Assembly (NCBI GenBank): GCA_949361645.1
Contig: OX442430.1
Span: 466,403-530,402, forward strand
Reading direction: 5' to 3'
Length of the DNA: 64,000 nucleotides
DNA from: Spongilla lacustris
Taxonomy: Eukaryota; Porifera; Demospongiae; Spongillida; Spongillidae
Of the stretch, positions 6,824 to 58,960 are shown in pieces. Both the position numbers and the translations under genes were made by a program. The notes beneath the pieces are model-generated. The model saw only the letters and a list, made by a program, of their open reading frames with translations, had not been told where the DNA came from and did no database searches. Position 1 is the stretch's first letter, and each line of letters opens with the position of its first letter.

Positions 6824-10143
<3,320 letters not shown>

Positions 10144-22658: not shown

Positions 22659-23957
22659 TCATTTGTATAAACCGGCAATTATTTCCTCACAGTCACTATT
22701 CTCGGTGATGGTCTTCTCGGCTTGGCCAGATGTGTTCCGCTCAGCTGGATTGTCACCTGGAGCGTCTGAATTTTCCGGCAACGTTTCTTCATGGTTTGCA
22801 TGGAGGGTTTCCTCTGCTTCAGGTAGTTCCATTGCAGTGGTAGGTTGTCCATCTAGGTAGTTTGCTGCCTGGTACGGTTTCGGGATAACAGCTGGGTAGT
22901 TTGGCAGTTTAGCAGCTGCCTGGTATAACGGTGCGGCAACCACAGTTGGATACTTTGCAGCTGCCTGGTATAACGGTGCGGTGACCGCAGCTGGGTATTT
23001 TGCAGCGGCCTGGTATAGCGGTGCGGCAACCACAGCTGGGTATTTTGCAGCTGCCTGGTATAACGGTGCGGCAACCACAGCTGGGTATTTTGCAGCTGCC
23101 TGGTATAACGGTGCGGCAACCACAGCTGGGTATTTTGCAGCTGCCTGGTATAACGGTGCGGCAACCACAGCTGGGTATTTTGCAGCTGCCTGGTATAACG
23201 GTGCGGCAACCACAGCTGGGTATTTTGCAGCTGCCTGGTATAACGGTGCGGCAACCACAGCTGGGTATTTTGCAGCTGCCTGGTATAACGGTGCGGCAAC
23301 CACAGCTGGGTATTTTGCAGCTGCCTGGTATAACGGTGCGGTGACCGCAGCTGGGTATTTTGCAGCGGCCTGGTATAGCGGTGCGGCAACCACAGCTGGG
23401 TATTTTGCAGCTGCCTGGTATAACGGTGCGGCAATCACAGCTGGGTATTTTGCAGCTGCCTGGTATAACGGTGCAGCAACCATAGCTGGGTATTTTGCAG
23501 CGGCCTGGTATAACGGTGCGGCAACCATAGCTGGGTATTTTGCAGCGGCCTGGTATAACGGTGCGGCAACCACAGCTGGGTATTTTGCAGCTGTTTGGTA
23601 TAACGGTGCGGCAACCACAACTGGGTATTTTGCAGCGGCCTGGTATAACGGTGCGGCAACCACAGCTGGGTATTTTGCAGCTGCCTGGTATAACGGTGCG
23701 GCAACCACAGCTGGGTATTTTGCAGCTGCCTGGTATAACGGTGCGGCGACAGCAGCTGGGTAGTATGGTTTTGCTCCCGGGTATGACGAGCTTTTGGCCG
23801 TACCTGCGACACCAGAGACATAGTGATTCTCCGCGAGTCCGAGATTGTCGTGGCTATCAGACTTCTCGCTGATAAGCTCTTCGGCTTTTATGTTTCCCTC
23901 TTCCGAATTTGCCGCAGAGACAAGTGCAATAAGAAAAACCAGAAGATAAGGCTTCAT
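22659..23957 (-). CDS. Secreted 15-residue-repeat protein, intact copy (432 aa)
   Basis: A single uninterrupted frame. A signal peptide (MKPYLLVFLIALVSAA) is followed by an acidic segment (about residues 18-48), then about 19 tandem 15-residue repeats of consensus YPAVVAAPLYQAAAK, encoded by a 45-bp minisatellite. The C-terminal tail (about 75 residues) is acidic and polar and ends NSDCEEIIAGLYK. Alternating Ala/Pro/Val with regularly spaced Tyr and Lys resembles structural extracellular proteins such as cuticle, silk or adhesive proteins. I recognise no named family. A TATA-like TTTAAAAGG lies 54 bases upstream (24011-24019) and is shared with the copy at 25360. Unit variants (YPAAVT, YPAMVA) recur in blocks, which suggests conversion or unequal exchange. 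Confidence 0.85.
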   Translation of the reverse strand: MKPYLLVFLIALVSAANSEEGNIKAEELISEKSDSHDNLGLAENHYVSGVAGTAKSSSYPGAKPYYPAAVAAPLYQAAAKYPAVVAAPLYQAAAKYPAVVAAPLYQAAAKYPVVVAAPLYQTAAKYPAVVAAPLYQAAAKYPAMVAAPLYQAAAKYPAMVAAPLYQAAAKYPAVIAAPLYQAAAKYPAVVAAPLYQAAAKYPAAVTAPLYQAAAKYPAVVAAPLYQAAAKYPAVVAAPLYQAAAKYPAVVAAPLYQAAAKYPAVVAAPLYQAAAKYPAVVAAPLYQAAAKYPAVVAAPLYQAAAKYPAVVAAPLYQAAAKYPAAVTAPLYQAAAKYPTVVAAPLYQAAAKLPNYPAVIPKPYQAANYLDGQPTTAMELPEAEETLHANHEETLPENSDAPGDNPAERNTSGQAEKTITENSDCEEIIAGLYK

Positions 23958-25359: not shown

Positions 25360-26512
25360 ATGAAACCTTATATCCTTGCTTTTCTTATTGCACTTGTCTC
25401 TGCGGCAAAATCGGAAGAGGGAGACAAAAGTGCTATCAGCGAGAAGTCTGATGGCTCGGTAGCGCAATCTATCCACGACAGTTTCGGACTCGCGGAGAAT
25501 CCCTATGTCTCTGGTGTCGCAGGTGCATGCGGCCAAAAGCCCGTTATATCCGGGAGCAAAACCATACTACCCAGCTGCGGTCGCCGCACCGTTATACCAG
25601 GCCGCTGCAAAATACCCAGCTGTGGTTGCCGCACCGCTATACCAGGCCGCTGCAGCTGTGGTTGCCCCACCGCTATACCAGGCCGCTGCAAAATACCCAG
25701 CTGTGGTTGCCCCACCGTTATACCAGGCAGCTGCAAAATACCCAGCTGTGGTTGCTCCACCGTTATACCAGGCAGCTGCAAAATACCCAGCTGTGGCCAA
25801 GAAACCGTTATACCAGGCCGCTGCAAAATACCCAGCTGTGGTTGCCCCACCGCTATACCAGGCCGCTGCAAAATACCCAGCTGTGGTTGCCGCACCGCTA
25901 TACCAGGCCGCTGCAAAATACCCAGCTATGGTTGCCGCACCGCTATACCAGGCAGCTGCAAAATACCCAGCTGTGGTTGCCCCACCGTTATACCAGGCAG
26001 CTGCAAAATACCCAGCTGTGGTTGCTCCACCGTTATACCAGGCAGCTGCAAAATACCCAGCTGTGAACATGAAACCGTTATACCAGGCCGCTGCAAAATA
26101 CCCAGCTGTGGTTGCCCCACCGTTATACCAGGCAGCTGCAAAATACCCAGCTGTGGTTGCCCCACCGCTATACCAGGCCGCTGCAAAATACCCAGCTGTG
26201 GTTGCCGCACCGCTATACCAGGCCGCTGCAAAATACCCAGCTGTGGTTGCCGCACCGTTATACCAGGCAGCTGCTAAACCGCCAAACTACCCAGCTGTGA
26301 TCCAGAAACCGTACCAGCAAGCAAACTACCCAGATGGGCAGTCTACCACTCCAATGGAACTACCTGAAGCAGAGGAAATCCTCCATGCAAACCATGAAGG
26401 AACGTTGCCGGAAAATTCAGACGCTCTAGGTGACAATCCAGCTGAGCGGAAGACATCTGGCCAAGCCGAGAAGACCATCACCGAGAATAGTGACTGTGAG
26501 GAAAAGTCTTAG
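25360..26512 (+). pseudogene. Secreted 15-residue-repeat protein, copy 2, with 4-bp frameshift
   Basis: Same signal peptide (MKPYILAFLIALVSAAKSEE), repeats (about 17) and tail as the intact copy, in inverted orientation. At 25524-25529 a four-base insertion (GTGCATGCGGCC against GTACGGCC) shifts the frame after VSGVAG. From the ATG the frame then reads 305 residues of a different, Cys-rich 15-residue repeat (CKIPSCGCRTAIPGR and variants) and stops at 26277, just after the array. The ancestral frame (25505-26512) stays open through the array and tail, ending NSDCEEKS. It is either a very young pseudogene, an assembly indel, or a gene re-read in a new frame. A TATA-like TTTAAAAGG is at 25298-25306. 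Confidence 0.8.
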
Positions 26513-28374: not shown

Positions 28375-30317
28375 CTAGGAGGTGTCCCCATGTGTCTCTG
28401 CATTATAGGGGGAATTTGCAGTGTTCCTGTGCTCTAGGTATCCAACTACTGCACCAAGCAGACCATTTCCAACAACACCAAACAGTGAGCTCCCCTTCTC
28501 ATATGCTTCTTTGGCATGTTTTGCAGCACCTTTCAGTGCAGCAGCTGTACCTGAGACAATCTGATAGCTGACAGCCTCACCAGTGATGGCCCAGTTCACA
28601 AAGCACTCGCAGTTATTAGTGATGAGGTTGTACTCCTTCTCATTCAGGCGACTGCGTGCTCTGGTGATGGATTCTTCCACAGAGAAGAGCCGCACCCCCT
28701 CTGGGTACTTGAGCACACACATGTCCTTCAAGTCTTCTTCCTTCACTGTCAGGGTCTCTTCTAGCACCACTCCAAGTGGAGCCCTCCCCCCATTTTCATC
28801 TCTGCTGCCCTGGAGATCATAGCTGTCCAATGCTGATGAGTGAGCCTCATGTCCTGGTCCTCGCTCACCAAGACTGGAGTAATGGATGACCCTGAATGAG
28901 TTGGCAGAATACACGTCGATCACCAACATGTGATGGTCATACATCCCTTGACGGTTTATCCTCAAGTGATCACCTAAGATAAGAAAAAAAAAGGGAGGTG
29001 CATAAAGGGAGGGAGGAGCAGAAGGGAAGGGGAGAATATTGGTCCTCACAGACCAGGTGCTTTGAAATTCCAAAAGCCAACTTAAGAGTCAGCTTCCCAC
29101 TAGTTGGGCAAGTCGAGCTACACCTGGCAACAAAATCCTATTAATGTACAGTGCATGGGCACATGAACTCGTCGGCAATTCTCTAGTCTACCACATCAGC
29201 TCCTGTTGCATGATTTAAACTACTCCACTGAGGCAATTCAACAGCAGGTTGAAGCCAAAAAGGAAGTTCACAGCTCAAAACGAGAGCACAGCCAGGGCAG
29301 CACTTCCAATCTCCGTTCACAGCTAGCTAACTCCACTCAACGGTCAATGGACCTGGCTCAGGAAAAGGGAGCATCCAACTGGCTACCTATTGATGAGAAT
29401 GGCTTCACCTTACAGGTGCATTTCGTGAAGCTCTAGCTCTTAGGTAAGGCTGGGTACCATCTAACCTTTCCTCCACCTGCAAATGTGGAAAGTCCTTCAC
29501 AGTAGAACATGCTCTCTCCTGTTTATTGGGTGGCTTTCCATCTATTCGCTACATTGAGATTTGCGATCTGACAGCTAATCTCATGGCAGAAGCCTGTCAC
29601 AATGTTTCCATTGAACCAACCCTCCAGACCATCACAGGAGAGACATTTTCTGCTATGTCAGCAAACACAGAATATGGTGGTTTTTGCGGTGGTCGATTTG
29701 AACGGACATTTTTTGATATCAGAGTTTTCAACCCCTATGCCCCTTCCAACCATATTCACACACTCTCCAGTTGCTACCGAAAACATGAAACTTTTTTTTT
29801 TTTAAAAGAGAGAATACGAGCATCAGTTACCCCAATCGTTCTCTCCTCAGCTGGAGGCAGCATGGCCTACCTACAAACGTTTGGCATCACTGCTAGCTGA
29901 CAAATGGGGCACATCATACAGTCAGGCTATGGGGTGGCTTCACTACCCTCTATCCTCGCCCATATAGGAGCCCGATCAAATCGAGGTCATGCGATACACC
30001 TCCCTCCCTCCATTGAACTGACAGCTCTGCCCTGACTCCATATGAACTCTTTGAAACCATTCACCTTTGAAGTTTCTTACAGTTAAATGTTTTTATTACA
30101 TGTATGTATTCTTGTAATGTTGTAATTAATCCACCCCTTGTTTGAAACATGGCGTACCCTACTACGTACTATTCTTAGGCCTACAGCTGGCGCAATCGTA
30201 CACCGTATATATGGTACGTACCTAGTAATAGGTATCTGCGTAGCCACTCGTCCGGTACATTACCTCACCTTGAGTAAGTACCGAAGCATTGGTCACCGGT
30301 ATCTTTATGTACTCCAT
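28375..30317 (-). CDS. LRAT-domain protein, gene B (duplicate of gene A)
   Basis: Exon 1 is 30317-30269 (MEYIKIPVTNASVLTQ plus a split Gly) and exon 2 is 28973-28375, for 215 residues. The protein is about 95 percent identical to gene A across exon 2, with the same GDHLRINR and NNCECFVNW boxes and Gly-rich hydrophobic tail, but exon 1 has diverged. The longer N-terminus possible in gene A is absent here, since an acceptor-like CTGTAG precedes the ATG. Donor GTGAGG and acceptor TTATCTTAG are good. The homology also covers about 300 bases beyond the stop and the region upstream of exon 1. The intron contains a retroelement fragment that gene A lacks. Both genes look functional. Confidence 0.78.
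29190..30080 (+). pseudogene. Retroelement ORF C-terminal fragment
   Basis: Frames read NSTQRSMDLAQEKGASNWL, GGFPSIRYIEICDLTANLMA and FCGGRFERTFFDIRVFNPYA, matching the C-terminal region of the same reverse-transcriptase family as 24180-25080. Frame changes and an 11-T tract break it. It lies antisense in the LRAT gene B intron. Confidence 0.75.
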
Positions 30318-49034: not shown

Positions 49035-52000
49035 TTATGTTTCTAGAAACAGCTGCAGCAGATAGCCAATGTGTCCAAAAAGTTCTTTCCACCTTTTCAG
49101 TGCCTGTTTGTAGTAAATTCCACACAGGTATTATAAAGCAAGAGAAAGTGAAGCACACCAAAATATCAATGTTCACTGAAACTTGCATTCACTTTAGTGT
49201 CCAGGTGAAATAAAAATACATGTGGAGCACAGTAACAGATGGAAACGCAACACAGTAACATATTGTTATCACAATAAAAAAATGCAATTAACGTAACTGT
49301 ACAACATACCTTCTGCATTGTTCATAGTACATGTATAATTACGGTGACAAGGAATAATTATAGATACAGTAAAGGTACAATACAAAATGCAATATCATTT
49401 AAACATACCCCCTGCATTGTTCGTAATAGTATGGATAGTGAAAGGAAATAAGTAGACAAAGTATTATGAATCAGAAAAGCATTATCACTGATATGCTTAC
49501 ATACTGCATTGTTCATGATACAATCGATTATGACAATGAATAAGCATTGTCCACAAATAGTACCAGTCATAAGCAAACATGGTACTGTGCAATGAGAAAC
49601 GCATATACTTACTCCCTACATTGTTATAATAGTGTTGGAAAATGAATAAGTGAACATGGCATGAGGCAATCACAAATGCAGGATTACTGATTTACTTACT
49701 CCCTGCATCATTTGTAATAGTATTGAAAAGACCATTGTTCATGATAGTTAACAAGCAAACATCACTGATATCCTTACATACTGCATTGCCATAATTTATG
49801 ACAATGGATAAGAAGACATGGTATGATGCAATCAGACAGGCAGCATCATGATTGTACTTACTCCCTGTGTTGTTCATAATATTATAGATAGTGACAAAGA
49901 ATACATAGGTAGCAATTGGAAATGCAGCATCGCTGATGTACTTACTCCCTGCATTGTTCAAAATGGTTTTGTTAGTGACAGAGAGTAAGTAGGCATGGTG
50001 TGATGCAATCAGAAATTCAGATGCACTTACTTGCTGCATTGTATTATAGAAACAAGGAATAAGTAGATATGGTGCAATCCAATTGGAAATGCAGCATTTA
50101 TGATGTACTTACTGGCTGCAGTGTTGATAATAGTATGGCCATGCCATAGTTGTATTGAAAAAATTGCACGTTATGGCTGAATTGGAGGTTCAGCATAATA
50201 AATGATCTTACTTTCTGCAGTGTTCATGATAGTGTCAAGGATGGCAGAATAATTAGGCATGTTAAGATGCAATGGGGAGATGCTGATATCCTTACATACT
50301 GCATTGCCATAATTTATGACAATGGATAAGAAGACATGGTATGATCCAATCAGACAGGCAGCATCACTATTGTACTTACTCCCTGTGTTGTTCATAGTAT
50401 TATAGATAGTGACACAGAATAAGTAGGTATGGTATGATGCAATTGGAAATGCAGCATTGCTGATGTACTTACTCCCTGCATTGTTCAAAATGGTTTTGTT
50501 AGTGACAGAGAGTAAGTAGACATGGTGTTATGCAATCAGAAATTCAGTATTATTGATGCACTTACTCCCTGCATTGTTTTATAGTAACAAGGAATAAGTA
50601 GACATGGTACAATCCAATTGGAAATGCAGTATTTATTTTGCAGATAGTAAAAATGAAACAGTACATATGGTATGATGGAATCAGAAATGCAAGATTGCTG
50701 ATGTACTTACTCCCTGTGTTTTTCATAATAGGAAACATTAGATATGTTGTGATGCAATTGGAAATGCAGCATCATTGATGATGTTCCAAACAGTGCCAAT
50801 GGTGACAAGAAATGTGCAGGCATGAATTGCAAGGGAAGATGCAATATCATTCATCTTACTCCCTGCAATGAAAACAAATGTGTAAGGCATATTACAATGA
50901 GAGATGCAACATCACTGATATCCTTACATTCTGCATTGCCATAATTTAAGACAATGGATAAGAAGACATGGTATGATCCAATCAGACAGGCAGCATCACT
51001 ATTGTACTTACTCCCTGTGTTGTTCATAATAATACAGATTGTAAACATGAAACAGTAGATATGGTATGATGAAATGCGGGATCGCTATGCAATCAGACAG
51101 GCAGCATCAATATTGTGCTTACTCCCTAATAGTAATTATAGTGACAAAAAAGAAGTAAGTATGGTATCAATTATGTAGAAATTTGGAAATGCAGCATGGC
51201 TTTAAATACTTACTCCCTGCATTGTTCAAAATGGTTTTGTTAGTGACAGTGAGTGAGTAGACATGGTGTGACACAATCAGAAATGCAGTATTATTGATGC
51301 ACTTACTCCCTGCATTGTTTTATAGTAACAAGGAATAAGCAGACATGGTACAATGTAATTGGAAATGCAGATGTACTTACACTCTGTGATGTTCATAATA
51401 GTATGGCCATGCCATGGTTGTATTGAAAATATGGGCACATTTTGGCTGAATTGGAGGTTCAGCATAATAAATGATCTTACGTTCTGCAGTGTTAATGATA
51501 GTGTCAAGGGTGGCAGAATAATTACACATGTTAAGATGCAATGGGAGCTGCTGATATCCTTACATACTGCATTGCCATAATTTATGACAATGGATAAGAA
51601 GACATGGTATGATCCAATCAGACAGGCAGCATCATGATTGTACTTACTCCCTGTGTTGTTCATAATATTATTGATAGTGACAAAGAATAAGTAGGTATGG
51701 TATGATGCAATTGGAAATGCAGCATCATTTGTGATGCAACAGTGCCAATGGTGACAAGAAATGTGTAGACATGAATTCCAATGGAAGATGCAATATCATT
51801 CATCTTACTCCCTGCATTGAAAACAAATGTGTAGGCATATTACAATGGGAGATGCAACATCACTGATATCCTTACATACTGCATTGCCATAATTTATGAC
51901 AATGGATAAGAAGACATGGTATGATGCAATCAGACAGGCAGCATCATGATTGTACTTACTCCCTGTGTTGTTCATAATATTATAGATAGTGACAAAGAAT

Positions 52001-54042
52001 AAGTAGGTATGGTATGATGCAATTGGAAATGCAGCATCGCTGGTGTACTTACTCCCTGCATTGTTCAAAATAGATAGGGACAAGTGTTATATGATGCAAT
52101 CAGAAATGCACTATGACATACTTACATGCTGCATTGTTCATGATAGTGCATTCGCATAGCATTGATAGTGACAACGAATAAGTAGACATGATACAGTGCA
52201 ATGCGAAATGCAACATCAAGGAATAAGTAAGTATGGGGATGATCCAATAGTAAATGCAGCATTGATGGTGTACTTACTCCCTTCATTGTTCACAATAGTA
52301 AAAAGGAATCAGTAGATATGGTATTATGCAATGAGCAACGCAGCATAGCTGGTGTACTTACTCCCTGCATTGTTCATATAATGGCCACAGTAGTATTAAA
52401 AGTGGCAAAGAATAAGAAGACATGTTATGATTGAATTAAAATATACAGATACAAATAATAACAGCATACACAAATTCATGAGGCAAGTAATGGCAAGCAT
52501 TTCATGCACTTACTAGTAGCTTTTTAAGAAGAAGAAATGTTGATGCATCTACTCCCTGCACTGTTCATAATAGTATGCATGTATGATTGCAATGGAAAAT
52601 GCATTTGTTTTATCTTACTCCCTGCGTATGCATTGTACACAATATAGGTTTGATAGTGATGATGCAATCAGAAATGCAGCACTGCTGATGTACTTACTTC
52701 CTGCATTGTTTATAATAGTATTGATAGTGACAAAGAATAAGTACACATAGCATGATGTAATTGGAAAAGCAGCACTGCTGATGTACTTACTCCCTGCATT
52801 GTTCATAATAGTATTGATAGTGACAAAGAATAAGTACACATAACATGATGTAATTGAAAATGCAGCACTGCTGATGTACTTACTTCCTGCATTGTTCATA
52901 ATAGTATTGATAGTGACAAAGAATAAGTACACATAGCATGATGTAATTGGAAATGCAGCACTGCTGATGTACTTACTTCCTGCATTGTTCATAATAGTAT
53001 TGATAGTGACAAAGAATAAGTACACATAGCATGATGTAATTGGAAAAGCAGCACTGCTGATGTACTTACTCCCTGCATTGTTCATAATAGTATTGATAGT
53101 GACAAAGAATAAGTACACATAACATGATGTAATTGAAAATGCAGCACTGCTGATGTACTTACTTCCTGCATTGTTCATAATAGTATTGATAGTGCCAAAG
53201 AATAAGTACACATAGCATGATGTAATTGGAAATGCAGCACTGCTGATGTACTTACTTCCTGCATTGTTCATAATAGTATTGATAGTGACAAAGAATAAGT
53301 ACACATAGCATGATGTAATTGGAAATGCAGCACTGCTGATGTACTTACTCCCTGCATTGTTCATAATAGTATTGATAGTGACATAGAATAAGTACACATA
53401 GCATGATGTAATCGGAAATGCAGCACTGCTGATGTACTTACGTCCTGCATTGTTCATAATAGTATTGATAGTGCCAAAGAATAAGTACACATAGCATGAT
53501 GTAATTGGAAATGCAGCACTGCTGATGTACTTACTTCCTGCATTGTTCATAATAGTATTGATAGTGACAAAGAATAAGTACACATAGCATGATGTAATTG
53601 GTAATGCAGCACTTATTAAGGTACAGGTGGACATACACCATAATTGATCTTACGTTCTGCAGGGCTCATCGTAACATCAAAGGTGACAGAGAGTAATGAG
53701 GCATGTTTTAACATGCAATTGAAAAAGGAACATTACGGAAATCCTTACATCCTGCATTGTCGTAATTGAATATGAATAAGAATCGTTCATAATAGTATTG
53801 GAATAAGGTGACACGGCATGCGTCAATCAGAAATGCAGCATCGCTAGCTGTACTTACTCCCTGCGCTAGATGAGCGCTCATCTCAACGGCATCCTTCGGC
53901 GTTGCATTGATGACATATCATTATGGCAATGCATGTATACCTGGTTCAGTGACGACCTCGGCACCTCAAGCTGGTAGCGATTCGGACGGGCGTCAGCGAA
54001 CAAGACAATCAGGGTCACAAGAAGAGCCAGTTCCTTCAGCAT
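49035..54042 (-). CDS. Novel secreted-protein gene apparently built from single-codon exons
   Basis: Exon 1 (54042-53941): MLKELALLVTLIVLFADA signal peptide, then RPNRYQLEVPRSSLNQ, ending in phase 0 at GTATAC. Then come 48 cassettes CAG/NNN/GTAAG. Lowest base and residue, in transcript order: 53858G 53749D 53654N 53535E 53442D 53349G 53256E 53163E 53070G 52977E 52884E 52791G 52698E 52619G 52553G 52362G 52278G 52126H 52053G 51960G 51876Y 51809G 51648G 51564Y 51481N 51381S 51307G 51214G 51123G 51012G 50928N 50860G 50711G 50566G 50473G 50380G 50296Y 50212K 50113P 50031Q 49946G 49862G 49778Y 49700G 49613G 49501Y 49409G 49310K. A six-base candidate (52514) may also be used. The terminal exon (49103-49035) follows TTTACTACAAACAG in phase 0: ALKRWKELFGHIGYLLQLFL, ET, stop. 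No stop codon occurs among the cassettes. Family unknown. Confidence 0.6.
49290..53870 (-). repeat. Tandem array of about 50 microexon/intron units
   Basis: Units of about 65-120 bases (some longer where a cassette is lost), read on the minus strand as GTAAG(T/G/A)...CAATGCAG plus three bases. Conserved blocks are the donor with following ATCAG or CATCAGC, GGTATGATGCAATT-like internal sequence, and CAATGCAG or AACACAG. Between units the splice blocks are the best-kept part and the three bases between them vary. A few units lack a recognisable cassette (around 50640, 50770, 51740 and 52200). Each intron has an AG-free stretch before its acceptor. Confidence 0.9.
52615..53634 (-). repeat. Homogeneous 93-bp tandem subarray (about 11 units)
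   Basis: Ten to eleven units of exactly 93 bases with very few differences. These are the youngest part of the microexon array (exon 3 + intron 90). Because 93 is divisible by three and the unit lacks stops, a 339-codon frame runs through it. That frame is a by-product, since it is not kept in the older units. The microexon codon alternates between GAA, GGA and GAC here. Confidence 0.93.
53941..54042 (-). CDS. Signal-peptide exon of the microexon gene
   Basis: 34 codons ending in phase 0 with CAG/GTATAC. Residues 1-18 are a classic signal peptide with an ADA cleavage site. A decayed duplicate lies at 58832-58960, and conservation extends to the upstream ACTGAAACGATTGG. The sequence TTCTTACAG just before the ATG could be a 5'UTR acceptor. 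Confidence 0.75.
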
Positions 54043-54096
54043 TTTCAATCGTCGAGTTGGCTGTAAGAAGAAAATGCAGGTGACTGAAACGATTGG

Positions 54097-54105
54097 TTTT
54101 TATAT
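54097..54105 (-). promoter_or_regulatory. TATA box of the microexon gene
   Basis: TATATAAAA on the minus strand (in GGGGTATATAAAAACC), about 55 bases upstream of the ATG. This spacing supports exon 1 as the real first exon with a short leader. Confidence 0.65.
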
Positions 54106-54109
54106 ACCC

Positions 54110-55090
54110 CTACACAGGAAGCCGATGGTTGCATGTATTGGTTCACGAGGACATATAATTATCATTGCGATACATGTATGCAGAGGATTATAAATTAATT
54201 CCAAGCAAACCAAGGTAACAGGAATCTACGAAAACGGGAAAACTACCGCGTTGCATAATATGTGAAAGTAGCACTAATACGAAGAGATCGCTTGGCAACT
54301 TGGCACACCCACTTCAGCACAACCAACTAACTCTGTACGACATACATGTAACCATGCACACACCTGCGAAAGGTTATTCACAGTGCATGGTTACTAAACT
54401 CACCGGCGCGCGCGTGCTTGAGTTCGATGTTCGTGAGATCTCGTTACTGCATGAACATGGAAGCTTTAACGGACGTAAAATGTTTATAAGTTAGATTTAA
54501 CTCCAATACTCTACTGATCTACAATGGTTCATTAGATTAAATTGAGCGAAGCTTCAGTCTCTAGTGGTAGTTTTTTTAGGTGAGTGCATGATTTTGACAT
54601 ACAGTATGATATAGGCCTACGTACTGGTGTAGTTTATGGCATCCTCTGTGGTAAGAGTATTTCTATACGCTCGTTCAATTTTCCTCTAGAACCCAGAAAG
54701 CATGCATCTATTGCATGCGGTGTTTGTTTTTACTCTGCACAATATATATATATAATTATATATATATATGTCTTCTATGGACAGCTAACGGTTAAAACCA
54801 TTCAGGGTTGCTGCGGTATAACAAGCCTTGTATTCAACTTAATCCCGCATGACCATGTACTGTTTACTTCCAAACTAACTCAGTTGTGCGAGTTCGTTGA
54901 GGAATCGAGGTTCCTAAGTATCTACATAGAAGATACCCGGCCTACTCAAAAGGCTACGCCGTATACACTTAGTTCTCTCCAAGAGCAATTTTGCGTGTAT
55001 TACATAGATTTTTAAAATATGTGTAACTGATCATGAGATACCCTTTAGCATAGTTTCATGCTGTATTAAAATTCTCCTGCATGCCACAAT
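54110..55090. other. No gene recognised
   Basis: AT-rich sequence upstream of the microexon gene. A 143-codon frame at 54584-55015 has no recognisable features. The segment ACTCAGTTGTGCGAGTTC near 54880 recurs inverted near 55920 as GAACTCGCACAACTGAGT, so the two probably bound an inserted segment. Confidence 0.5.
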
Positions 55091-55720: not shown

Positions 55721-57480
55721 GGTCTTTTAACCACCACCTGCATGGTCTAGTGTGACCTGGCCCTAGCAGTACATGAGGGCAGAGTCTTAATGAGCTGAAT
55801 TTCTGTAGATCATATATGTTTGTGAGTATGCATTATAGGAGGGAGCTTAATTTAAGTGTTTATAGCGTAACCTTTTCACTATTTTTGATTCTTAGGAACC
55901 TCGAGTTCTCGATCGAAGAACTCGCACAACTGAGTTAGTTTGGAAGTAAACAGTGGTTATGCCATATATGGGTATGCGGTATTACGTTGAAAACAAGGTA
56001 CCTCAAAGAATTGCGGCTGTGTTGGATGATGCATGGTGCAATGCCTATTATGGTGATGGCCTAAAAAAAAAAAGTGGCCACAAGGAGTTGTTTAGACAAG
56101 CTGAAGCCATGTACATGGTCACATGCAGATTGGTATAATATATTTCGAAGCTACATGCTCACAAATTGCATGGTGTATAAATTGATACTGGTGAGTGGTG
56201 ATGCATGGTGTGGAAAAAGTGATATCTCGGGGGAAATGTACTTTATATTTGGTAGTATTATTGGAGGCTCGCCAAGCAACTGCACAAAGGGAGACACAAA
56301 GGACTGCTGATCAAGACATGATGGACCTGACGACATGTGCAAGGCTGAGTTCTGAATCATGGCGCAGTTCACTGTGTGCTCGGTGTCTCATCAGTAGAGA
56401 ACAGTTGTATTTGTACACCATAGAGCTTTTTATTTGCACTACAAACGCATGTTATTTGATATCAAGTAATGTGTATGTACTAACTATTTTTCGTTGCATG
56501 TCCATGGCTAATATACTGCTGCATGGATGCACATGCATCTTATATGTGTATTGGTCTATTGGTCAGTCATTAGGTATACAAACTGCATCTAAAGTGGTCC
56601 AAATGAATCACTATGTAATCCCCATGCCAATTAGAAGTTCCGATCAAAAAGAGAAAAGCTGGTAATATGCATTCATTTGGATCTGGATGCATGTGATACA
56701 AAAGCGTAGCTAAAAGACAACATTTTTTCCAGCCTCCAGTTGCATGCATTCAGAGCCAATTATTCCCGACGGCGTGCATGGTATATCGTGGGCGTTATAT
56801 TTGTTTCCTGCGAGTTAATAGGATAGCTTCTATTACTACGCAAATAACGCCCACAATATATCATGCACTTGAATAATAAATGCTTAGGGTTAGGGTTAAA
56901 GTAGGGAAACTAAGCTGAGCTTGGGTCCCAGGGAAAATATGTATCCCCGACTCCAGCACTTTGCTGATATGCTTCAACTAACTCTAGCTCAGTCTTTCCA
57001 ACTTGGTCACTTAAGTCGTTCTGAAGTGCCAGTCACTGCCTTTTCTTTTACTCTCACCAGCTTTACTTCAATCCTAGCCATCACTTTCTCGTCTAATTTT
57101 CTTGTCGTCTCTCTGATTACTTCATACCATCTACGTTGAAATTCTCCCTCATCTCCGAGTATGGGGGGTGCATGGAGCTATCCCTCGCAGACCGCTGGCC
57201 GCGCCCCAGCTCCCTCCAGATTTGAATTGTCTTAAACATGTTGTTTATGAGGGCCTCTTAGGGTTAGGGTTGATTAATTAATGCTTCTGGACGATACATA
57301 ATACATACATGTACAAAGAGACTACTACTAGCTGATCGCTCATCTCAAGGTTAGTAAATCATTATGGCAGTACATTATTAAATAATTAGATAATTCACTA
57401 TCAAATAGAAAATGCACACACAGAGACTACCTAGACGATTAAAATAAAATAAAATATATTACAATATAATATAAAACATA
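55720..57480. other. No gene recognised
   Basis: Mixed non-coding sequence. Two short telomere-like TTAGGGTTAGGGTT stretches are at about 56885 and 57257. The segment 57331-57380 (CGCTCATCTCAA, ATCATTATGGCA) resembles intron 1 of the microexon gene near 53875-53930 and marks the far side of a retroelement insertion. Confidence 0.45.
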
Positions 57481-57489
57481 CTACAGCTG

Positions 57490-58800
57490 AAATTCATTCT
57501 GGCAGGTATGGAAGCCCAGCTCCGTCTTCAATCTTCATCCTTCTCCTCCATTTCACTCTACTGCCGCGAATGCACAGATTCGTAGCACGATGGACAGCAA
57601 AAAACATCCTTGCACGCACATAGCCCAGCACTTCACTGTTAGACTTGTGCCAAATTGCAGCTATTTTTTCAGCCAAATGACATATAAATGTCTTTGCCTC
57701 AAGACCCAGTGCCCCATCAGCTGTCACAACAAATGGTGTAAAAGATGCATTACTTATTTCTTAGTTTGTGTTCAATCGAGGAAAGAACTGCACCCATATC
57801 ACAGTGCAAGTAAGAATTAGCATCTGAATCCACTACTCAAACATCAAAAAAGGTAGTAGCTTGAGGCTATCATACACCACGAACAGAAAGATCAGCAACC
57901 AAAGCAGGAACATTTTCACAGTCATTGTACGATAGGTTCTTTCACAACCTCTTTATAGGCAATTGAAGCTAGGTCACCAAGGGCATCCCTAATCTCATTG
58001 TGTCTCTGAATGACTAAACTGCCCTTTTTTCTACAATCAAGGGCATGTCCAGTGCTGAACTGACTACCACAACCATCACACAGAGCTGGCAATCATAGTA
58101 ATGGTCGATGATATCGCAGTGCCAGTGAGTCCCGAAATTCAGTGGCAGATAGATCAAAATGATGGCATGCCATTGGTATCACTGTCAACCATGCAGAGGT
58201 CTTTCCATCCATTCCTAGTTGTATAGCTCTCTTCTTGTTGTTATCAAAGGTTTATAAAACTGAATTCAGAAGGTTCTGGTATTGGATTTCAATGTCTCGA
58301 TTTAATTCCCGGTGTAGCTTTGAAAGGTGGTCTATGTGATTAAATACTGAGAAGACTGAATTACACTTGATTGCATCAACTATATGAGCTGTACATTTTC
58401 TTGAATTTGCAAAGGAAGATACTGCTGTTGATAGAGGATCGCGAATTCCCAGTCCTCCATGATGGGCTGGAAGTGAAACCAGTTTCTTTTTACAGTTCCC
58501 TGGAATAAAGCTGGCCAAAAGATGTCGTTCAATGCATTGCGCAGGATTTCAAAGCAGGATTCACAATTTGGTACCACTCTTTGCAGGTAAGACCATTGGA
58601 ATTGCACTGATTTGGAAAGAGCTGAAAATGCAGCCTGGGAGTATAATTTGGCTGCCTCAGCCAATACACCCACTCCAGATGTCCAAGTTTTAACCTTCTC
58701 TAAAACAAAAGCAATGGCACATCCTCTTCCTCCGCAATGAATCCTCCCAAGAAACGATGTCCACGAACTATTTTTACTCCAAGTTCTCCAAACAGTGCCT
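57490..58800 (-). pseudogene. Retroelement ORF, C-terminal part, inserted in a microexon-gene pseudocopy
   Basis: In transcript order: AAKLYSQAAFSALSKSVQFQ, LVSLPAHHGGLGIRDPLSTA, then MTADGALGLEAKTFICHLAE and VLGYVRARMFFAVHRATNL. These match the post-polymerase and C-terminal region of the same retroelement family. Frameshifts and gaps are present. It separates the decayed first exon (58832-58960) from an intron 1-like segment at 57331. Confidence 0.78.
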
Positions 58801-58831
58801 TAGCTTCAGCCTCCCAGTACCAGGTTATACG

Positions 58832-58960
58832 TTAGTGACGATCTAACCTCGAGTTCATAGCAATGGGGACGGGCATCAGCGAACAAGGCAAACGTGCAGG
58901 GTCACAAGAAGAGTCATGCAGCTCCATCAGCTTTTCAATCATCGAGTTGGCTGTTAAATA
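58832..58960 (-). pseudogene. Decayed copy of the microexon gene's first exon
   Basis: Matches 53941-54060 (TCTTCTTGTGACCCTG, CTTGTTCGCTGATGCCCGTC, CAACTCGATGATTG) and continues upstream with ACTGAAACGATTGG. The start codon is lost and small indels break the frame. No cassette array follows on its downstream side. Confidence 0.85.

Follow-up and report, generated by a model that had tools for sequence, protein, structure and literature searches.

Consecutive one-codon exons predicted to build secreted peptides in a gene family of the sponge Spongilla lacustris

A stretch of 64,000 nucleotides (nt) from the freshwater sponge Spongilla lacustris (contig OX442430.1; hereafter the window, in which all coordinates below are positions) carries on its minus strand a gene that raises an unusual question, namely whether a secreted peptide can be built by splicing together exons that each consist of a single codon. 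An earlier sequence-only reading of the window had described about 50 tandem units, in each of which a splice acceptor and a splice donor are separated by exactly three bases, and had proposed a single secreted-protein gene assembled from them. The proposal is supported by independent loci in the same genome, with the correction that the gene is one member of a family. In the window gene and in the more than two dozen relatives examined, acceptor-codon-donor units follow one another in runs of as many as 48, and genomic evidence makes it very probable that this Spongilla family builds a secreted peptide by splicing consecutive one-codon exons.

A pattern scan ([CT]AG-NNN-GTA[AT]G) of the window minus strand from 54042 to 49103 identified 46 units, to which two weaker units recognised by eye may be added, giving approximately 48, in line with the number first claimed; the same stretch after dinucleotide shuffling (n=300) contained a mean of 0.29 units and a maximum of 3. 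A scan with a stricter donor, GTA[AT]G[TAG], between 54100 and 49000 gave 44 units at a spacing of 3 and, among the other spacings from 0 to 30, one case each at 7, 8 and 20 and none elsewhere. The 46 triplets (GDNEDGEEGEEGEGGHGGYGGYNSGGGGNGGGGGYKPQGGYGGYGK) include no stop and are ordered, with an acidic block preceding a Gly/Tyr block, and the exons of the latter are each flanked by [CT]AG and GTA[AT]G. The signal-peptide exon, the TATA-like box and the phase-0 terminal frame were also found as described when the sequence was re-read (Table 1). One correction applies to the reading of every unit as a one-codon exon: the first GGA (53858-53860) more probably belongs to a 36-nt exon 2, as its 3' end, because its frame resembles the acidic second exon of the family. 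The counterpart of this probable exon is DAVEMNDQLALR in one paralogue, L038, and ..DTVEMSDEV.. in other members; its acceptor (GCCGAAG) is weak, and the alternative would be a 3-nt GGA exon after CGCAG.

The interpretation of the units as consecutive three-base exons is supported because the leader is paralogous genome-wide and because 14 of 15 loci picked by the leader alone carry arrays. In the 248.56 Mb genome, the pattern CAATGCAG-NNN-GTAAGT has 648 exact matches (262 forward, 386 reverse) and its reversed control has none. Arrays with four or more units on a single strand were present in 17 of the 20 stretches fetched around listed pattern matches, nearly all of them downstream of a paralogous leader (MLKELALLVTLLALFADARP...), and a leader exon lies within 9 kb upstream on the same strand in 86 of the 100 pattern matches listed, all of which are on C1 and C2. 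A search of the genome with the leader exon returned 62 matches at E<=10 (49 at E<0.01), a lower bound because leaders seen in L023 and L024 are absent from the match list. The 15 leader-picked loci are on contigs outside the listed pattern matches; 14 of them contain 5-39 units at spacing 3, and the set as a whole, including the exception L032, contains 268 such units, compared with no more than 15 for each of the other spacings between 0 and 30; the antisense strand has 4 at spacing 3. L032 contains a single unit, and the locus is interrupted by a minisatellite with a unit of 35 base pairs (bp). The leader is common to 31 of 36 stretches and is conserved and hydrophobic (hydropathy 2.9-3.5 in the members listed), as would be expected of the predicted signal peptide.

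Three further loci depart from the common arrangement. No leader at E<=0.01 was found in the stretches of L026 (C2:10917001-10927000; array CGMGGGGIPIP) and L018 (C1:986001-996000; array LYDDDDDD), which either have a diverged leader or belong to a second family with the same units. L011 has two leader exons 1.8 kb apart and a single array after the second, and is possibly a decaying member; one leader match there was dropped from the 31-gene set, a second gene following.

The distribution of change within the units points to selection on them as splice units. When 617 units are aligned, the information content is 0.04, 0.10 and 0.45 bit at exon positions 1-3, typically 0.3-1 bit in the flanking intron and up to 2 bits at the splice sites, AG and GTA-G being fixed by the scan pattern itself. 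Five pairs of paralogues, in which 83 of 96 units were left after a context filter, differ at 5 of 746 splice-site bases, 151 of 3795 flanking intron bases and 27 of 249 codon bases; when the pair formed by the window gene and L038 is omitted, the figures are 4/656, 128/3326 and 17/219, respectively (splice conservation, p 1e-6; codon excess, p 0.012). Relative to the flanking intron, splice-site bases show approximately sixfold fewer changes and codons about 2 to 2.7 times more, unevenly among pairs. By these comparisons the splice sites of the units are conserved between paralogues, while the codons are likely hypervariable, if unevenly so; some of the codon differences could stem from units exchanged between copies. 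This pattern is difficult to reconcile with the explanation that the arrays are a minisatellite in which splice-like motifs arose by chance and no splicing occurs. Such an origin would account for the homology of the units within and between loci, and part of the window array, inside the acidic block, is indeed a 93-bp tandem repeat (52659-53613, 10.3 copies, 96 % matches; Tandem Repeats Finder). On the other hand, conservation within the unit is highest at the splice-site bases and lowest at the exon positions, stops are avoided in one phase, the arrays come after a signal-peptide exon, and the true minisatellite of L032 lacks any such pattern, with 1 unit at spacing 3. A chance origin of this kind is hardly credible.

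Constraint on the reading frame points to coding function. In the strict scan of 31 leader-bearing genes, 1 of 619 triplets is a stop, whereas base composition at the three positions predicts 29.9 (P 3e-12, a value that serves as a guide only, the paralogues not being independent); stops from a loosened scan, mostly AAG acceptors inside GGAAG-TAAG, were excluded. Across 477 neighbouring unit pairs, phase 0 contains no stops and the other two phases contain 7 and 49. The avoidance of stops in one frame only, together with the conservation of splice bases between paralogues, supports the splicing of consecutive three-base exons. It also bears on the possibility that the arrays lie in real transcribed genes in which the units serve as decoys or as recursive (stepping-stone) splice sites, rarely or never included, with the leader joined to the terminal exon. 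Three-base exons are hard to include, and the acceptor and donor of each unit stand nearly back to back, much as in recursive (zero-length) splice sites, where an acceptor directly abuts a strong GTAAGT donor. Decoys, however, need no reading frame, yet one frame alone avoids stops, and the sponge units differ from recursive sites in having three coding bases between acceptor and donor (3 pairs at spacing 0 versus the 268 at spacing 3 in the 15 loci). Furthermore, the triplets are peptide-like and gene-specific, and one motif, in L039, is duplicated at the codon level. Decoy or recursive function is thus considered very unlikely.

The peptides obtained by translating the arrays differ from gene to gene and may be cysteine-rich, collagen-like or Gly/Tyr-rich. 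The array of L013 translates to RRCPSHFPDCGPDPCFDQCPPECGCPPAGEGCGPRGK, that of L033 includes a collagen-like GPPGPPGPP run, and that of L039 contains a cysteine motif twice (CPPGCFLTDRCNINHPPPPC and CPIGCFLTDHCNINDPPPPHC), with one codon per exon throughout; a few residues in these three translations come from the loosened scan. A Pfam scan of seven predicted products found nothing above the curated cut-off, the best score (GRP glycine-rich, 27.7 bits against a cut-off of 30) belonging to the window model, and matches below the cut-off were given no weight. It is conceivable, if unlikely, that the units are spliced but that each message includes a small, variable subset, such that the long peptides are never made and the array serves as an alternative-splicing menu. 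Every unit is a symmetric phase-0 cassette, so skipping would be free, and donor and acceptor strength differs among units. Nevertheless, some features depend on unit order, among them the Gly-X-Y spacing of L033 and the cysteine motif that L039 has twice, and these suggest that long contiguous runs are joined.

How consecutive one-codon exons might be spliced is suggested by the dimensions of the introns. The distance between units minus 3 has a median of 88 nt (5th-95th percentile 71-254, missed units included), and GTAAGT serves as the donor of 533 of the 619 units in the 31 genes. In a relaxed scan, which includes some chance sites, GTAAGT follows 38 of 78 triplets whose last base is G but 495 of 650 with any other last base (p 1e-6). 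Since the introns are short and uniform, recognition across the intron (intron definition) would be the natural mode: the spliceosome would recognise each unit in this way and remove the introns, joining the codons in the message. A 3-nt exon would be too small for definition across itself, and a near-perfect GTAAGT donor may offset the lack of an exonic half in the U1 site. Gain of an intron-plus-codon unit by tandem duplication, or loss of one, would then change the peptide by one residue with the frame kept; skipping of any unit would likewise leave the frame intact, and the mature peptide would be free to diversify fast while the secretion leader remains constant. The array units also show a strong codon preference (CCT in 99 of 107 Pro, TGT in 80 of 84 Cys and GGA in 78 of 101 Gly codons) that could come from unit duplication or from a splicing constraint.

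The predicted architecture of the family consists of a signal peptide, one or more acidic propeptide exons, one-codon exons and a terminal exon. A scripted search recovered the chain of leader, acidic exon 2 (3n+1, ending in phase 1) and exon 3 (3n+2, ending in phase 0), which sets phase 0 at the start of the array, in 11 of 28 genes; in L030 it reads ..ARPEPYK, KDTVEMSDKVDIGGEDDDLVASRDDILD and EMIISYMRAKNAEGLKTQ, and exon 3 of L021 and L022 is doubtful. The motif E[PL]xG[HY]xG of a terminal phase-0 exon was found by script in 6 of 28 genes, the window gene among them. Terminal sequence can be aligned between the window gene, L038, L030 and L035, the phase-0 ends related to that of the window being ALKRPKEPFGYIG in L038 and VQRPEPCGHHG in both L030 and L035, each followed by a stop. 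Two candidates were rejected: a Gly-Leu-stop terminal exon in many members came from a mis-split made by eye, and the 9-nt 'PTG/STG' exons of L032 are its 35-bp minisatellite, one 9-nt exon (ELH) of that locus being retained.

Several observations weigh against the splicing of one-codon exons throughout the family. Known splicing reaches its lower size limit at exons of three bases, and the splicing of the arrays is a prediction from genomic sequence. The acceleration of the codons is uneven, with 0/63 codon changes in two pairs; the window gene and L038 are possibly mis-registered among near-identical units; and 17 nonsynonymous versus 3 synonymous changes are not clearly above the neutral expectation. 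The sole stop among the 619 triplets is an in-frame TGA, in L011. Fewer than five units were found in 3 of the 31 genes, and 14 of the 100 pattern matches listed are without an upstream signal-peptide exon. No exon 2-3 chain could be traced in 17 of 28 genes and no terminal exon motif in 22 of 28, the stretches of L033 and L039 ending early. Finally, a protein search with the spliced model matched the signal peptide and leader only, not the array-encoded part.

Named protein matches to the leader come only from another freshwater sponge, Ephydatia muelleri, in which counterparts are 96 % identical to exon 1 of the window gene. Exons 1 to 3 are shared with gene models of that species (e.g. P0003, ..PSK LKDTLIEMSDEVEENSDSLTNSNDILE EMIVSYLRAKNAGSLKAAW), some of which stop soon after the leader. 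The end of one model, P0008 (VSITNVMLPNAP), is identical in 7 of 12 residues to the translated start of a Spongilla unit intron (VSINDVTFPIAP); comparison by eye suggests that this model continues into a homologous unit intron, a hint that arrays are also present in E. muelleri. The read-through open reading frame of the window array (339 amino acids) had no match in the protein collection at E<=0.001, and arrays in other species are therefore not traceable in that way. Viral contigs contained no match to a 26-base unit pattern, and prokaryote contigs (257 Gb) contained four matches, one per contig, to a related 18-base pattern, which were taken as chance. No report of such arrays was found in the open-licence PubMed Central (PMC) literature, absence from which is weak evidence.

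Among known systems, the micro-exon genes (MEGs) of schistosomes are the obvious comparison. They encode secreted proteins with a constant N-terminal signal peptide and many very short internal exons whose lengths are multiples of three, with about 10-20 exons, introns of 0.1-5 kb and 35 genes in all (PMC10526429). The sequence-only reading had stated that schistosome micro-exons are longer than three bases, which is roughly right: most are of 15 bp, with a range given as 6-81 bp in the text and 3-81 bp in the abstract (PMC10526429). The sponge family resembles MEGs in its predicted secretion, its signal peptide and, judging by the predicted exons, its short exons in multiples of three; it differs from them in size (exons of 3 nt, introns of about 88 nt), in having up to 48 units that are tandem duplicates and in an apparently unrelated leader. 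Aphid bicycle genes also form a fast-evolving family of secreted proteins with a signal sequence and many micro-exons (about 17 internal exons per gene, almost all phase 2) and encode CYC motifs (PMC9168663). The predicted sponge proteins are similarly fast-evolving, with a signal sequence and micro-exons, but their exons are of phase 0 and one codon each, and no bicycle-type CYC motif was seen by eye to be shared among the translated arrays. An isolated 3-bp micro-exon has been reported in an otherwise ordinary gene, Drosophila homothorax (PMC7392893); it is alike in its one-codon size, but it is single, in contrast to the dozens that would consecutively make the mature sponge protein. The sponge family is predicted to work like the schistosome MEGs and the bicycle genes, yet among the features compared none specific to either was found.

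The family probably represents a categorically new gene architecture in which the exon is a single codon, the spliceosome assembles the mature peptide residue by residue, duplication and loss of units, as in-frame insertions and deletions of one residue, drive hypervariable secreted peptides, and combinatorial skipping could multiply isoforms. If the genes are spliced as predicted, exon size falls to one codon, dozens of times consecutively, providing a test of the spliceosome without exon definition, and duplication of an intron-codon unit becomes a route by which peptides grow residue by residue. The sponge would then be the third unrelated lineage, after flukes and aphids, with fast-evolving secreted proteins built from micro-exons, and the annotation of freshwater sponges would likely lack the mature portion of an entire secreted family.

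Table 1. Predicted features of the window gene (minus strand)
Feature	Position	Strand	Sequence or remark
TATA-like promoter element	54095..54110	-	GGGGTATATAAAAACC; from sequence; putative promoter
Exon 1, signal peptide, 102 nt	53941..54042	-	MLKELALLVTLIVLFADARPNRYQLEVPRSSLNQ; ends CAG/GTATAC, phase 0
Probable exon 2, 36 nt	53858..53893	-	DAVEMSAHLAQG; probably what is left of the acidic propeptide exon of the family
Acidic block, 13 one-codon exons	52619..53751	-	D N E D G E E G E E G E G; low coordinates 53749, 53654, 53535, 53442, 53349, 53256, 53163, 53070, 52977, 52884, 52791, 52698, 52619
Degenerate candidate unit GGA	52553..52555	-	donor GTAGAT; by eye; L038 counterpart CAATGCAG-AAT-GTAAGG
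Gly/Tyr block, 32 one-codon exons	49310..52364	-	GGA 52362-52364 to AAG 49310-49312; GHGGYGGYNSGGGGNGGGGGYKPQGGYGGYGK
Weaker candidate unit GGA	52278..52280	-	after AAG, acceptor CAATGAAG; by eye; L038 counterpart CAATGTAG
Terminal exon, phase 0	49035..49103	-	ALKRWKELFGHIGYLLQLFLET, then stop; from sequence

Elsewhere in the window, the leader exon recurs in degenerate form on the minus strand at 57330-58950 (about 58940-58830, ..ALFADARPHCYELEVRSSL), together with an exon-2-like scrap (about 57350-57330); the two are separated by approximately 1.5 kb of retroelement-like DNA, and no array comes after them. A different secreted protein is present as two inverted copies, each a single uninterrupted exon (22659-23957, minus strand; 25505-26512, plus strand), with a 15-residue repeat (YPAVVAAPLYQAAAK) encoded by a 45-bp unit in 19 and 16 copies and weak Extensin-like Pfam matches below the cut-off. 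Two frames of the LRAT (lecithin retinol acyltransferase) family, at 6824-7507 and 28375-29073 on the minus strand, score above the Pfam cut-off.

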